Source: a bacterium
GTDB taxonomy: Bacteria > UBA6262 > WVXT01
Length of the DNA stretch: 35,946 nt
Direction of reading: 5' to 3'
NCBI GenBank assembly: GCA_011773355.1
Contig: WVXT01000047.1
Location: 1 to 35,946 of the forward strand
Below the pieces are notes generated by a model. That model searched no databases. It was not told the origin of the DNA and saw nothing but the letters and a program-made list of their open reading frames with translations. Position numbers and translations under genes: made by a program. Every line of letters begins with the position of its first letter. Position 1 is the stretch's first letter. This document shows positions 3,125 through 27,803 of the stretch, piece after piece.

Positions 3125-4513
3125 CTATTTAAGATTATTTTGTATTAGACTTTTTAAATCTTGCAGTTTAGGTAAGGTGATAGGGTCGGCGAGATAAATT
3201 CCACGCTGGCTTCCTTCTCTCCAAGCCAGATATAATATCCTCTCCTCAGCGGGCGAGAATACAGGATTTGTATTTCCATAATATTTTCCACTTACCACCT
3301 GGCGCTTGTTTCGACCATTAACATTAACTGTATAGATTCCTTTCCAGCCAAAGAATCCTTCACCAGGCGTTCTGCGATGAGATTTGCCGCTGCTTAAGAA
3401 TAGTATCTTCTTTCCGTCCCGTGAGAAAGAGGGAAATTTATTGTAGGATTTGTCACCCACCAGGCATTTTCTATTTTTTCCCCCAGTGTCACATATATAG
3501 ACTGCGCTATTATCCAGCGAGTCGATCTTGCCATCTTTATTGGTATCTCTGCGCCTACTTAGATAGACTATTTTAGTGCCATCCGGGGAAAAAACCGGAA
3601 AAGAGTTACTGTATCTATCACTTACCAGCTCTTGTTCATTTCTGCCATCACTATCTATAATATATACACCACTGTTATCACGCAAATCAATCTTGCCATC
3701 TGCGTTAGTATCCCTTCTCCAGCTGGCATAGACTATCTTTTGACCATTGGGTGAAAAAGAAGGAAAGGTGTTATCATATTCATCACTTACTATTTGTTTC
3801 TCATTTTTGCCATCAGTATCTATGGTATAGATTCCACTATTGTAATCTCGCCAGCTGGCAAACAGAATCTTATCACCATCCGGGGAAAAAGAAGGAAACT
3901 TATTATGATAGTTGTCAGAAACTATACATTTTTCACCTTTTCCGTCTAAATCTTTTATGTATATTCCCGCATTATCCAGCAAATCAACCTTGCCATCTCC
4001 GTTAGTATCCCTGCGCCTGCTCAAATATACTATCTTGGTCCCATCTGGTGAGAATGAAGGAAAGCTATTCTGAAAATCATCATTTACAACTTGTCTTTCA
4101 TTTCTTCCTTCAACATCTATAATGTAAATTCCGAAATTGTCTCCCCGGCCGATGACGCCATCGCCGTTGGTATCCCGCCGAATGCTACAAAAAACTACCT
4201 TCTTGCCATCGGGAGAAAATGCTGGAAAGGCATTGTAATATTCGTCGGTCACAATTCTTTTCATGCCAGTCAATTCACAGATTCTTTCAATCATCTCTTC
4301 TCGGGGTCCAAGAGTGATTATTTCTTCCAAGACTCTTTTTGTATTTGCAAAATCCTTATTGTTAAAATAGGCCTCTGCCAAAAGATAACAGGTGTTGATG
4401 TCTTTTCTCTTAGAAACCGCCTTAGAAAACTGCTCAATGGCCTGGTCAAACAGCCCCAATCCAAATAGTTCCTTCCCTTTCTTGACTTCTCTGATTTTTC
4501 CAAAGAGACCCAT
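3125..4513 (-). CDS. TPR plus seven-bladed PD40/TolB-like propeller with EF-hand-like loops
   Basis: 462 aa from the chosen ATG. The first about 85 residues form two TPR-like helical pairs (GKELFGLGLFDQAIEQFSKA). Then come seven PD40 (WD40-like) blades, each with an N-x-FPSFSPDGxKI core, as in TolB-type propellers. Four blades (1, 2, 4, 5) carry a 12-residue insertion of the form DTNxDGxIxxxD. It has Asp/Asn at positions 1, 3, 5 and 12, Gly at 6 and a hydrophobic residue at 8, matching an EF-hand/dockerin calcium loop. There is no signal peptide, which is odd for such loops. The ATG at 4513-4511 is preferred over one two codons upstream, because the AGG inside yraN's end is then about 8 nt away. 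The function is unknown; a scaffold or sensor is possible. Confidence 0.8.
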   Translation of the reverse strand: MGLFGKIREVKKGKELFGLGLFDQAIEQFSKAVSKRKDINTCYLLAEAYFNNKDFANTKRVLEEIITLGPREEMIERICELTGMKRIVTDEYYNAFPAFSPDGKKVVFCSIRRDTNGDGVIGRGDNFGIYIIDVEGRNERQVVNDDFQNSFPSFSPDGTKIVYLSRRRDTNGDGKVDLLDNAGIYIKDLDGKGEKCIVSDNYHNKFPSFSPDGDKILFASWRDYNSGIYTIDTDGKNEKQIVSDEYDNTFPSFSPNGQKIVYASWRRDTNADGKIDLRDNSGVYIIDSDGRNEQELVSDRYSNSFPVFSPDGTKIVYLSRRRDTNKDGKIDSLDNSAVYICDTGGKNRKCLVGDKSYNKFPSFSRDGKKILFLSSGKSHRRTPGEGFFGWKGIYTVNVNGRNKRQVVSGKYYGNTNPVFSPAEERILYLAWREGSQRGIYLADPITLPKLQDLKSLIQNNLK

Positions 4514-24133: not shown

Positions 24134-24814
24134 TTATGGTGCAAAAATTGCTCTTCCTATCCGCACCATGTTTGAACCTTCCTCAATAGCCACTTCAAAA
24201 TCATTACTCATACCCATGGAAAGATATGTCATTTCTACATTTTCTATATTCTCAGCTCTAATTTCTTCGGCAAGCTCCTTCAATTTTCTAAAGCAGGGTC
24301 TACAATCTTCTGGATTTTCATAAAGGGGGGCCATAGTCATCAGTCCTTTAATTTTTAGGTTAGGTAGCTCACTAACTTCTTTGAGAAAAGTAATTACCCC
24401 TTCAGGATTTAAACCATACTTTGATTGTTCACCCGCTACATTCACTTCAATTAATATCTCCTGTACCTTGTCAATTTTTCTTGCCTGTTTGTCGATTTCT
24501 TTGGCCAATTTAGCGCTGTCCACAGAATGGATTAAATCAAAAATCTTGACAGCATCTTTTGCCTTATTCCTCTGCAAGTGTCCTACCAGGTGCCAGATAA
24601 CCTCACTCTTTACTTTTCCATATTTTTCTTTTGCTTCCTGAACCCGGCTCTCGCCAATAATATTTACTCCCGCAGCTACTGCTTGTTCAATTCTATCCGC
24701 CTCTACTGTTTTAGTCACTGCTACCAGGGTTATTTCCGTAGCATTTCGACCAACCAATTCCGCCTTAACTCGAATTTTCTCTTCAACTTTTTCTAAATTT
24801 TCCCTTACCGACAT
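24134..24814 (-). CDS. yggS: YggS/PLPBP pyridoxal-phosphate homeostasis protein
   Basis: 226 aa single TIM-barrel domain binding PLP through Lys35 (LVAVTKTV). Other motifs: GVNIIGESRVQEAKEKY, WHLVGHLQRNKAK, EVNVAGEQSKYGL, GLMTMAPL and LSMGMSNDFEVAIEEGSNMVRIGRAIF. It is thought to keep PLP levels balanced rather than to catalyse a reaction. The ATG starts three bases after the upstream stop. Next to proC, as in many bacteria. Confidence 0.97.
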   Translation of the reverse strand: MSVRENLEKVEEKIRVKAELVGRNATEITLVAVTKTVEADRIEQAVAAGVNIIGESRVQEAKEKYGKVKSEVIWHLVGHLQRNKAKDAVKIFDLIHSVDSAKLAKEIDKQARKIDKVQEILIEVNVAGEQSKYGLNPEGVITFLKEVSELPNLKIKGLMTMAPLYENPEDCRPCFRKLKELAEEIRAENIENVEMTYLSMGMSNDFEVAIEEGSNMVRIGRAIFAP

Positions 24815-24817
24815 ATC

Positions 24818-26137
24818 TTATTTTCTCACTACTTCCCTCTTTGCAGCACTCACGTTGCCTGCTCTGTCCCGGGCCAAAATTGTCAGGATATTTTTCCCGG
24901 GAACCAGTTTGCAATAGATAACAAAATTACCCTCGGAATAAGTAACTGCTCGTTCTCCGTTCACCTCCACGGTAGAACCCTCCTCTGTCTTTCCCTTAAC
25001 CACAACGAACTCTTCTTTCGTCTTAGCCCTTTTTCTGGGCAGGAAAATTTCCAACTTCGGGGGTTTGGTATCAATAACCAGACTCTTTACCGAAGAAGCT
25101 TTAATCTTAGCACCCAAGTCATTGCAATAGAAAAGGCGCCAGAAATATCTACCGTCCGGGAGCCGGCTTTTCTCCTCAGAACTTCCGAAAAACTCCATAG
25201 GGAAAGTGTTAGCCATAAAATTTTCTACTGAAGAATGGACCGATTTCCCAGTGGAATGGAACAGCTTCCAGAAATACTCACTATTGTCCAGAACGCTCTC
25301 TTTATCCACAACAAGCTCCCTAAAATTTTCGTCCTGAGCAATTTCCAGGTGGTAATATTCTATGGCAAACGCCTTTCCTTCCGCTGATGCAGGCACATAC
25401 ACAAATGGTTGGGGTTCCTCTATTCCTTTCCCGTAGTCGATATTCAAACGAAATCCTTCGGAGAGAGTTATCTTGACTCCGTCCGAGGCAACGTCAACTT
25501 TACCCGTATAGACGGCAACCTGTGTCGATTTATCCTTTCTCACCCTGGCTTTGAAGTCCGGCTTCGGTCCTTCCAAGCTGAGTCGTGGCTCAATCAACGC
25601 CGCTGCTGTCAGAACATTAGCCTGCGCAGCGCGCAGTTCCCCGGAAAGAAGCTCGACCTCTTCTCTCTCTTTTTCTGACCTTAAAACTACGAGTGAATTC
25701 TCCCTTATCTTTAAAACTTCTCCACTTTCAAAACCGATGCTAGCAAACGACCTTCTCAATGTCCTTATTGCATCTCCATTGGATAGCTTCATATTCAACT
25801 TTGCACTCTGCCATTCCGATTCTCCTCTTCTGCGCGCACGCACCTCTCTGAGGAGATAAATTAAATGCGCTGCCCTTAAATGCTCCTTAATTAACTCTAC
25901 GGGCAATTTCAATTCCATTGCTGGTAGAATATAGTCCGGGTCGTCAATTACATTGTTATTGTATCGATAAATTTCTGGCCAGCGACTGGGGTCTTTCAAA
26001 TATTTATCGGCAATCCCATGTAGCGTGTCTCCTGATTTTACTTTGATTGTTTGTAGTTTTACGTCTCCTGCTCGCTCTAGTGAATAAACAGTACTTGAGA
26101 AAAGGAAAATAAGAATAGCCAGTCCGATTCTTATCAC
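24818..26137 (-). CDS. Secreted LysM-FecR domain protein
   Basis: 439 aa from the GTG at 26137-26135, which has GGGAGG eight bases upstream and gives a clean signal peptide (MIRIGLAILIFLFSSTVYS). A longer frame from a TTG at 26191 lacks a ribosome site. Domains: LysM (about 30-80: IKVKSGDTLHGIADKYLKDPSRWPEIYRYN split into the LysM core and helix), FecR-type beta domain (about 108-235: NGDAIRTLRRSFASIGFESG), a fibronectin-like middle, and a C-terminal Ig-like domain with EEGSTVEVNGERAV and ARDRAGNVSA. LysM binds peptidoglycan. LysM-FecR proteins are common envelope proteins of unknown exact role. It is last in the HTH-PilZ cassette. Confidence 0.88.
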   Translation of the reverse strand: MIRIGLAILIFLFSSTVYSLERAGDVKLQTIKVKSGDTLHGIADKYLKDPSRWPEIYRYNNNVIDDPDYILPAMELKLPVELIKEHLRAAHLIYLLREVRARRRGESEWQSAKLNMKLSNGDAIRTLRRSFASIGFESGEVLKIRENSLVVLRSEKEREEVELLSGELRAAQANVLTAAALIEPRLSLEGPKPDFKARVRKDKSTQVAVYTGKVDVASDGVKITLSEGFRLNIDYGKGIEEPQPFVYVPASAEGKAFAIEYYHLEIAQDENFRELVVDKESVLDNSEYFWKLFHSTGKSVHSSVENFMANTFPMEFFGSSEEKSRLPDGRYFWRLFYCNDLGAKIKASSVKSLVIDTKPPKLEIFLPRKRAKTKEEFVVVKGKTEEGSTVEVNGERAVTYSEGNFVIYCKLVPGKNILTILARDRAGNVSAAKREVVRK

Positions 26138-26187
26138 GTATATTCCTCCCGCCCAATGCCAAACTTCCATGAGAAAACCAGGAACTA

Positions 26188-26763
26188 TCAAGATTCGATA
26201 TCTTTCTTCTTAAACAGAAGAATTGACTGTAGAAGTGATTTTGTTAATTTTCGAAAAAAGCGTATCACCAGAGCCTGTCTCCGATCAAAAGACCTTCTGT
26301 TTCTTACTCGCCGGCGATTGGAGACATAGTCAGGTATCACCGCGGTTCTCCGTTCCGCCTTTCTTCTTTCTATTCTTCTCCGTTCAGGCACTGCTTCCCC
26401 AAGACTATTTTTTGCCTTAGTAAATTCTTCTAATATCCTCTTGTACTCTTTCTTTAAACTTAAAAATTGGACCCCACAATTAAATTTCTTATCCCTCGGC
26501 AGGAAATAGTTCCACAACACTTTTGCATCCGTATCCAAGCGGGGAAAAGGAAAGGCTAAATCAAGAGTTAATGATATCCTCGAAGAAACTGGCAGAGAAC
26601 TCTTTAGAAGAAGAGAGGCCCCCCGGGAACTTAAATCGGCCGTCTCTCCGGAGAAACTGGTGGGAATGTTATCAGGTAGATCCTTGACTCTTACTTTAAC
26701 CGGAATCCCTGCTAAAACTCTTGTCGTTGCCCTTCTATCTTTTGCAGTTAAAATTCTTTTCAT
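26188..26763 (-). CDS. PilZ-domain protein with Arg-rich C-terminal tail
   Basis: 191 aa. The PilZ domain (about 8-112) keeps both c-di-GMP motifs: RxxxR at R11-R15 (RATTR) and DxSxxG at D43-G48 (DLSSRG), so ligand binding is likely. It also has the GVQFLSL strand. From about 126 the chain is an unusual arginine-rich tail, ERRRIERRKAERR and NRRRVRNRRSFDRR, ending in a hydrophobic/basic segment (about 165-186) that could contact membrane. The ATG has a GGGAGAAG site. It lies 20 bp after the HTH gene and 50 bp before the LysM-FecR start, so the three probably form one transcription unit. Confidence 0.92.
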   Translation of the reverse strand: MKRILTAKDRRATTRVLAGIPVKVRVKDLPDNIPTSFSGETADLSSRGASLLLKSSLPVSSRISLTLDLAFPFPRLDTDAKVLWNYFLPRDKKFNCGVQFLSLKKEYKRILEEFTKAKNSLGEAVPERRRIERRKAERRTAVIPDYVSNRRRVRNRRSFDRRQALVIRFFRKLTKSLLQSILLFKKKDIES

Positions 26764-26783: not shown

Positions 26784-26963
26784 TTAATGGTGCTTATCAT
26801 TCGATTTTTGCTTCACCCAGGAATCTATTTCTGACTTGTTGTAACGCCACTGTTTTCCAATCTTTAAGGCCGGAATCTTTCCCTGGCGGGTCATTTTGTA
26901 GACCGTAACTTTGCTTAATCTAAGATAATCTGCTACCTCTTTTATGGTCATTAATTTCTGCAC
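26784..26963 (-). CDS. Small BldC/excisionase-like helix-turn-helix protein
   Basis: 59 aa from the GTG at 26963-26961, which has AGAGGTG seven bases upstream. A GTG at 26972 and an ATG at 26951 are alternatives. A single winged HTH fills the protein: MTIKEVADYLRLSKVTVYKM, TRQGKIPALKIGKQWRYNKSEIDSWV. This is the HTH_17/excisionase-type domain shared with Xis, TorI-like and BldC-like MerR relatives. No phage or integrase gene is nearby, so a transcription regulator is more likely than an excisionase. Its promoter region carries 10-bp direct repeats (26981-27030), suggesting autoregulation. Confidence 0.9.
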   Translation of the reverse strand: MQKLMTIKEVADYLRLSKVTVYKMTRQGKIPALKIGKQWRYNKSEIDSWVKQKSNDKHH

Positions 26964-26980
26964 TATTTTCACCTCTATTT

Positions 26981-27030
26981 TGTGATTTTTTCTTATATCT
27001 CTTGATATTTTGTGATTTTTTGTGATATTT
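26981..27030 (-). promoter_or_regulatory. Array of five 10-bp direct repeats (putative operator)
   Basis: Read on the plus strand in 10-bp steps from 26981: tgtgattttt, tcttatatct, cttgatattt, tgtgattttt, tgtgatatt(t). Units 1, 4 and 5 share tgtgat, unit 3 has ttgatattt, unit 2 is degenerate. All are in exact 10-bp register, so they lie on one face of the helix. The array fills the space between the -10 box (27032-27037) and the ribosome site of the HTH gene. Head-to-tail binding to direct repeats is known for BldC-type MerR relatives; its use here is inferred. Confidence 0.65.
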
Positions 27031-27031
27031 A

Positions 27032-27060
27032 ATAATATATAATGTAGAAACAGAAGTCAA
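27032..27060 (-). promoter_or_regulatory. Promoter of the HTH-PilZ-LysM/FecR cassette
   Basis: On the minus strand: TTGACT (27060-27055), a 17-bp spacer, TATTAT (27037-27032), ten of twelve core bases matching. The TGA in the -35 box is the stop codon of pgeF (27059-27057). The predicted transcription start (about 27025) falls inside the direct-repeat array. Confidence 0.72.
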
Positions 27061-27803
27061 GAAAAATTTAGTTGGATAATTGCCATCATCCGCCCGGTGG
27101 AGGTTTTATCTCGGCGATAGGAAAAAAAATTTTCATTTTCGTAAGTACACATCGGCATTATCTGGATATTTTTCGGAACAATCCCTGCTCTCTGCAACTG
27201 GTATGAATTTGCCTTGGCTAAATCGACAGACCAAAATTTTTCCTGGGAGACCGGAGAAGATTCTGAAATTATTGAGGCTAAAACTTCTCTTCCCCAAGAC
27301 TTGAAGCACTCAGTGAAAGCTTTTGCCACCGGAGACCAGGAGACCGTATAGCATTCTTTGCAAATGTGCGGTCCGATTACTGCAAGAATATCTCTTGCTT
27401 TTACTCCGAAAACATGCGAGATCATGTTCACTGCCATAGAGGAAATATTGGTTACTGTGCTTCGCCAACCCGCGTGCAGAAGACCTGCTATTTTTCTCTG
27501 AGGATGGAAAAGGAATATGGGAGGGCAGTCGGCAACAAATATGGCAAGAGGGACATTGGGTAGGTCAGTAATAAGCCCATCTGTAGCAGGAAACTTTCTT
27601 CCCCGGTCTTTTTCTCTAACTATAGCAATGCCATTCTTGTGTACTTGCTCTCCAGTAGTGATTCCAGAATCGGCTATGTTTAAGCGGCGGGCTATCTCTC
27701 TTTTCTTTTCCGGGAATTTTGCATTGCCCGCATTGCCAGTGGTAATGCCAGCTAAAACAGGAACCGTAGAGGTAAAGGTGATGGGAAGAAAGAAGTCTTC
27801 CAT
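27057..27803 (-). CDS. pgeF: PgeF/YfiH-family protein (peptidoglycan editing factor, multicopper-type fold)
   Basis: 248 aa, formerly called laccase or DUF152. The metal/catalytic triad is visible: His55 (GEQVHKN), Cys93 (ADCPPIFLF) and His110 (LLHAGWRST). The C-terminal CTYENENFFSYRRD is also conserved. E. coli YfiH removes mis-incorporated serine from muropeptide precursors, while other members show purine nucleoside phosphorylase/deaminase activity. Near ftsZ and yggS, as in Firmicutes (ylmD-ylmE). The ATG lacks a good ribosome site; AAAAGGAT about 20 bases upstream lies in the pilT end. Confidence 0.93.
   Translation of the reverse strand: MEDFFLPITFTSTVPVLAGITTGNAGNAKFPEKKREIARRLNIADSGITTGEQVHKNGIAIVREKDRGRKFPATDGLITDLPNVPLAIFVADCPPIFLFHPQRKIAGLLHAGWRSTVTNISSMAVNMISHVFGVKARDILAVIGPHICKECYTVSWSPVAKAFTECFKSWGREVLASIISESSPVSQEKFWSVDLAKANSYQLQRAGIVPKNIQIMPMCTYENENFFSYRRDKTSTGRMMAIIQLNFS

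Follow-up and report, generated by a model that had tools for sequence, protein, structure and literature searches.

A direct-repeat array precedes a small HTH_17 gene

The DNA analysed here, referred to as the window, comprises positions 1 to 35,946 of contig WVXT01000047.1 (assembly GCA_011773355.1), from a bacterium of the lineage UBA6262; WVXT01. On its minus strand, a gene encoding a 59-amino-acid winged helix-turn-helix (wHTH) protein of the HTH_17 type lies downstream of pgeF, and five direct repeats of 10 bp are found between its promoter and its ribosome-binding site. An initial annotation, made from the sequence alone, had reported this array within the range 26981-27060, which includes the promoter besides the array, and had interpreted it as an operator for the adjoining protein. 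The features at the centre of our analysis are as follows.

27055-27060, minus strand: -35 box TTGACT, read from the sequence; also TTGACT in three congeners; overlaps the pgeF stop codon
27032-27037, minus strand: -10 box TATTAT, read from the sequence; 17-nt spacer in the window species
26978-27027, minus strand: five-unit 10-bp direct-repeat array, proposed operator, from sequence, repeat scoring and conservation
26970-26976, minus strand: ribosome-binding site AGAGGTG, read from the sequence
26784-26963, minus strand: HTH_17/excisionase-type wHTH protein of 59 amino acids, proposed autoregulator (PF12728, TIGR01764, AlphaFold, Foldseek); likely start codon GTG at 26963

Read in the sense of the gene (minus strand), the gap-free units of the array are TATCACAAAA (unit 1, 27027-27018), AATCACAAAA (unit 2, 27017-27008), TATCAAGAGA (unit 3, 27007-26998), TATAAGAAAA (unit 4, 26997-26988) and again AATCACAAAA (unit 5, 26987-26978), which together span the whole gap from the -10 box to the ribosome site. 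The promoter is a good sigma-70-type sequence (TTGACT-17-TATTAT), and the position of its -10 box suggests a transcription start near 27025, so that in the predicted transcript the array would run from about +1 to +50. Scoring of the repeats bore out the annotated array. Tandem Repeats Finder gave it a score of 61, the highest in the window (next, 44), and its all-pairs period-10 identity of 0.75 was reached in none of 2000 dinucleotide shuffles (mean 0.45, maximum 0.63). It is also the strongest period-10 stretch in the 359 kb of its own genome that were sampled for this comparison, the runner-up window having an identity of 0.57. The pitch of 10 bp corresponds to one helical turn, as had been annotated.

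The array is conserved in register and occurs once per genome

The window genome (G000; 1.33 Mb, 101 contigs, 84% complete) was compared with three congeners (G001-G003) and two more genomes of the same order, one of which (G004) belongs to a sister family; the phylum is represented by six genomes in the set used. The HTH gene is present in each of the three congeners, its product being 93-95% identical. Conservation of the repeat register, proposed in the initial annotation as a check, was looked for in the three congeners and found in each, with no indel in the array, whereas the promoter spacer does show indels (approximately 17 nt in G002, 18 nt in G003). In the HTH-gene promoter of G001 (contig C93) the -35/-10 spacer is clearly shortened and the array intact; either the assembly is in error here or the promoter has been weakened. 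The period-10 identity of the arrays in G001, G002 and G003 is 0.74, 0.62 and 0.70, respectively, and 0 of 2000 shuffles scored as high. Relative to the window species, the three arrays differ at 4, 7 and 5 of 50 positions (8, 14 and 10%), compared to 28-29% of the four-fold degenerate sites of pgeF (Fisher p = 0.005, 0.064 and 0.018). Units 1 and 4 are invariant across the four species.

The best-conserved part of the array, ATATCA(A/G)AGATAT in all four species, contains the inverted repeat ATATC-N4-GATAT in units 3-4, and a symmetric dimer bound there could be what is functional, with the tandem register incidental. We consider this very unlikely: A/T-rich arms of five bases are weak evidence for such a site, units 1 and 5 lie outside the palindrome and are kept too, and the AlphaFold model of the single-domain HTH protein contains no dimerisation helix.

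To the initial annotation's proposal of further arrays of the same unit in the genome, the searches gave a negative answer. With a search pattern of two units and at most three mismatches, the own genome gave only the array locus, and a 25-bp pattern matched solely the array before the HTH gene in each of the four genomes (reversed-pattern control, 0), although pattern searches of this kind would miss more divergent sites. These searches, which found this locus only in all four members of the genus, gave no sign of a regulon of further arrays. One array locus per genome fits a dedicated, self-acting regulator encoded next door better than a global regulator. The second HTH_17 gene common to the genus (L002, G000:C44) has no comparable array upstream, and a search for more relatives of the locus returned two loci, apparently the same contigs as those of G003 and G001.

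The 59-residue protein belongs to the HTH_17 family and is predicted to fold like BldC

The HTH protein consists of a single domain, without a coiled coil or effector domain. It belongs to the HTH_17 family (PF12728, 75.1 bits, cut-off 27) and to the excisionase-type family (TIGR01764, 65.8 bits, cut-off 28.8). Its previous description as BldC-like holds for the predicted fold and not for the family, as the protein scores 22.9 bits against the curated BldC family model (NF033787), below the cut-off of 77 bits, and HTH_17/excisionase-type is the correct name. The AlphaFold model, with a mean predicted local distance difference test score (pLDDT) of 89.8, comprises two HTH helices, a wing and a C-terminal helix. 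Its nearest solved folds are the BldC-smeA-sffA DNA complex (6AMA) and then RdfS (8DGL), with TM scores of 0.66-0.78; given the short length of the protein, no Foldseek E-value fell below 0.001.

Head-to-tail contacts between adjacent BldC molecules are formed by R22 with E16', and by F21, V23 and W31 packed against I40', L43' and G44' (PMC5859096). In a phmmer alignment of the HTH protein to BldC, the aligned interface residues are R15, E9, L14, L16, M24, L33, I35 and G36; E9, R15 and G36 are identical to E16, R22 and G44, and the counterparts of F21, V23, W31 and L43 are hydrophobic. Among the residues through which BldC contacts DNA (K26, R30, H46, R47 and R48), R48 is the sole identity (R40 in the HTH protein), and R30 is replaced conservatively by lysine. 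The HTH protein may thus work like BldC without being a member of the BldC family.

Two other assignments were considered and rejected. A role as an excisionase or recombination directionality factor, whose gene would be expected beside an integrase gene and an attachment site, was set aside, since no integrase is present among the open reading frames read between 23.1 and 32.1 kb, where the neighbours are ftsA, ftsZ, pilT, pgeF, pilZ, yggS and proC. For a classical MerR regulator an effector and coiled-coil domain and a promoter spacer of 19-20 bp would be expected, versus a protein of 59 amino acids and a 17-bp spacer in the window species.

One-turn repeats also stand out before HTH_17 genes in other lineages

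A locus in another genome (L013; G005:C136, 1360-2218), where an HTH_17 gene has four CATTCYATAC-type units, unrelated to those of the window, that end at its -35 box, was the trigger for a survey of this family. Downstream of the L013 gene is a PIN_3-domain gene (77 bits), an arrangement that looks like a toxin-antitoxin pair with an HTH_17 antitoxin. For the survey, the 150 nt preceding HTH_17 genes of many lineages were scored, each upstream against its own shuffles. In the first set of 71 upstreams (68 without near-duplicates), the mean z at period 10 was 1.74, with 18 upstreams above 3 and 9 above 4, while mean z at periods 7, 8, 9, 11, 12 and 13 ranged from -0.16 to 0.24 (paired tests versus period 10, p < 3e-6 each). 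The period-10 mean z was 0.14 for 199 upstreams of other genes, none of which exceeded 4, and 0.22 for 28 HTH_3 genes, one of which did. The second set, drawn from 297 genomes of one phylum and the rest of the first sample, held 74 upstreams (88 loci unfiltered) and was dominated by a subclass with a YRI wing. It gave a weaker signal, with a mean z of 0.63 at 10 bp and 0.74 at 9 bp (period 10 versus the small HTH_3 control, p = 0.07). Genes for proteins with W[RK]F-type wings had period-10 means of 2.14 in the first set (n = 42) and 1.17 in the second (n = 15). Repeats of 9 bp were seen upstream of three HTH_17 genes with a YRI/YRV-type wing (L345, L341 and L200), the same pitch as that reported for BldC at whiI.

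With the promoter boxes of the surveyed arrays read by eye, the repeats lie at or just behind the -10 box in L219 (TATTGGTATC TATTGTCATC TATTGGCATC), L130, L006 and L031, as in the window, within the -35/-10 spacer in L212, L205 and L235, and upstream of the -35 box in L013. These arrays all cover or abut the promoter, as expected for autoregulation. Two related HTH_17 genes (L323 and L326, in G293 and G323) have GTTAAC-type 10-bp repeats upstream of the -35 box and in the promoter spacer. The units of 20 arrays share a loose core of CA on one strand and TG on the other, plus A/T. A pooled unit motif, built from the other arrays with that of the window left out, had an information content of 3.83, versus 3.19 ± 0.12 in column-permuted controls (maximum 3.56 among 100 controls).

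These observations tip the balance slightly towards the view that self-regulation is common among single-domain HTH_17 proteins and works by way of two to five direct repeats at one-turn pitch (10 bp, or approximately 9 bp in the second set) over or beside their own promoter, the unit differing from protein to protein and maybe retaining a loose TG-plus-A/T core. As a rule for the whole family this is likely, short of established, since the hypothesis arose from the first set and was only partly borne out by the second. In the literature searched, which mostly comprised papers available without subscription, we came across no account of a repeat operator common to HTH_17 genes as a family.

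The survey also bears on two explanations of the window array that do not involve the HTH protein. The array is A-rich on one strand and its A-rich tracts return at 10-bp spacing, as they would in intrinsically curved DNA whose phased A-tracts tune the promoter by shape, with no dedicated protein. We judge this improbable: all four species retain a C as the fourth base of units 1, 2, 3 and 5, and in the arrays of other HTH_17 genes the repeats frequently do not consist of A-tracts (L219, TATTGGYATC; L013, CATTCYATAC; L212, ACCAACTGTC), so that the common feature is the pitch rather than the A-tracts. Curvature may nonetheless assist binding. Alternatively, the array could be the site of another regulator that reads tandem sites of 10-11 bp, for example a response regulator of the OmpR/PhoB type, which would place the HTH gene and pilZ under an external signal. 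A Pho-box-like TTAACA repeat of 11 bp does occur elsewhere in the own genome, at L105/L121 (G000:C59, about 3752-3875), where the direct repeats TTAACAAAAAA and GTAAAAATTTT lie between divergent genes, one of which encodes a protein of more than 1350 amino acids with a signal-like N-terminus. Such regulators, however, usually act at multiple sites, yet the window pattern was found at the array locus only in all four species; no response regulator is adjacent, and the period-10 enrichment seen before HTH_17 genes is absent before the 199 other genes. This explanation is therefore unlikely, if somewhat less so than curvature.

The array as a putative autoregulatory operator

Conservation in the genus and the family survey support the reading of the array as a direct-repeat operator, and we propose, with a probability of roughly 75%, that it is the autoregulatory operator of the adjoining 59-residue protein. 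The HTH protein would probably be a monomer in solution, and each 10-bp unit would be bound by a single molecule, whose recognition helix would lie in the major groove and whose wing would enter an A/T-rich minor groove. As the units all face one side of the DNA, the bound molecules could stack head-to-tail and bind cooperatively. The resulting filament, covering about +1 to +50 behind the -10 box, would be expected to keep RNA polymerase from clearing the promoter and might also stop transcription running on from the pgeF side, such that the level of a predicted hth-pilZ co-transcript would be set by the concentration of the HTH protein itself.

Several observations weigh against this proposal. 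Within the array, unit 2 drifts, with 5 of 10 columns varying and a good match to the repeat in the window species only, and unit 4 is a weak copy of the repeat in all four species. G001-G003 are mutually close, so the conservation described above amounts to essentially one deep comparison. In the protein, the glutamate, arginine and glycine at the interface positions are also present in other HTH_17 proteins and discriminate weakly, and base-reading residues of BldC are lost (K26 to V19, R30 to K23, H46 to Q38 and R47 to W39). Across the family, many HTH_17 upstreams have no array, and the window unit matches the pooled motif no better than do its own permuted columns (p = 0.30-0.54).

Neighbouring genes and a possible connection to c-di-GMP

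The genes flanking the HTH gene are listed below.

27057-27803, minus strand: pgeF, upstream neighbour (TIGR00726, 157 bits, cut-off 141)
26188-26763, minus strand: PilZ protein with RxxxR (RATTR) and DxSxxG (DLSSRG) motifs (PF07238, 41.6 bits)
24818-26191, minus strand: LysM-FecR protein with an N-terminal hydrophobic segment (LysM, FecR, Glucodextran_B)
24134-24814, minus strand: yggS-type gene, downstream neighbour (Ala_racemase_N)

The pilZ gene starts approximately 20 nt after the HTH gene, and the motifs for binding cyclic di-GMP (c-di-GMP) in its product are intact, as annotated: RATTR and DLSSRG conform to RxxxR and (D/N)xSxxG, from which c-di-GMP binding is predicted. The hth-pilZ pair is found in four of four species, with pilZ of G003 split by a contig end and seen in its 5' part. 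The LysM-FecR gene had been annotated as the third member of a three-gene cassette; only G000 and G001 have it between pilZ and yggS, and it is cleanly absent from this position in G002 and G003, which reduces the cassette to two genes. Relatives of the LysM-FecR protein with 45% identity are encoded elsewhere in the genomes of G002 and G003. In the sister-family genome G004, ftsZ-pilT-pgeF is followed by a different gene.

The locus had also been suggested to be a switch linking c-di-GMP to the cell envelope, in which the HTH protein would receive feedback from the PilZ protein and would itself control envelope genes. The intact PilZ motifs, the hth-pilZ linkage in four species and the GGDEF-family matches found in all six genomes, with five to seven in each of the four genus genomes, are in keeping with such a switch. 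As worded, this proposal is not supported, and it is unlikely: what joins its parts is gene adjacency, the HTH protein has no ligand domain and at 59 amino acids is too small for a sensor domain, the LysM-FecR gene is missing from the locus in two species, and pattern searches of the four genomes found no second array that could mark an envelope target. A link of the array or the HTH protein to c-di-GMP is thus speculation.

Comparison with known systems

Binding to direct repeats spaced by one turn is already known from BldC, Xis and Apl, and in part from RdfS, and the window locus adds a member to this group. In Streptomyces, BldC (PDB 6AMA, 6AMK) binds head-to-tail on direct repeats, and smeA-sffA has four tracts set at regular intervals of one helical turn (PMC5859096). 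The HTH protein resembles BldC in being a small single-domain wHTH protein whose closest solved fold is BldC and which retains the E16, R22 and G44 contacts, while it differs in failing the BldC model and in its base-reading residues. BldC, moreover, controls a regulon, whereas the window array is found at one locus per genome, and the window unit is A/T-rich with a pitch of 10 bp, in contrast to the 9 bp of BldC at whiI. RdfS, the recombination directionality factor of ICEMlSym-R7A (PDB 8DGL), forms an oligomer on DNA and represses its own promoter (PMC11963761). It too is an HTH_17 wHTH protein and the second-best fold match, but it has an extra N-terminal oligomerisation helix, sits on a mobile element and has no consensus motif found for it, whereas the window locus has a clear array and lacks an integrase among the open reading frames read around it. 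Apl of phage 186 and other Xis-type factors bind direct repeats with a spacing of roughly one helix turn, presumably as one monomer each, with high cooperativity; they bend DNA and can repress promoters (PMC7498355). The operators of Apl resemble the window array in being direct repeats of this spacing, although these are proteins of phage switches and attachment sites, and Apl is a sequence outlier of its own family (PMC7498355). Euo of Chlamydiae, an excisionase-like wHTH transcription factor that binds promoters via multiple boxes (PMC4989314), differs in having two tandem wHTH domains and more than 100 target promoters. Lastly, the HTH domain is very similar to that of Mad1 of the MADS defence system (NF047737, 74 bits; PADLOC mad1, 46.8 bits), but the protein falls below the NF047737 cut-off of 80 bits and its neighbours are pgeF, pilZ and yggS, with no defence operon.

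Implications for HTH_17 regulators

Small HTH_17 proteins abound in bacteria, with matches to TIGR01764 in 207 of 290 sampled genomes, and to our knowledge few small HTH_17 proteins have a known operator. A readable one-turn array in front of the gene would provide a testable operator for many of these proteins and would extend the filament mode of BldC and Xis to chromosomal operons. If the family-wide rule holds, the operators of thousands of uncharacterised regulators could be read off genome sequences, and autoregulation of chromosomal genes by such filaments would be common, not a special trait of excisionases and of Streptomyces development.
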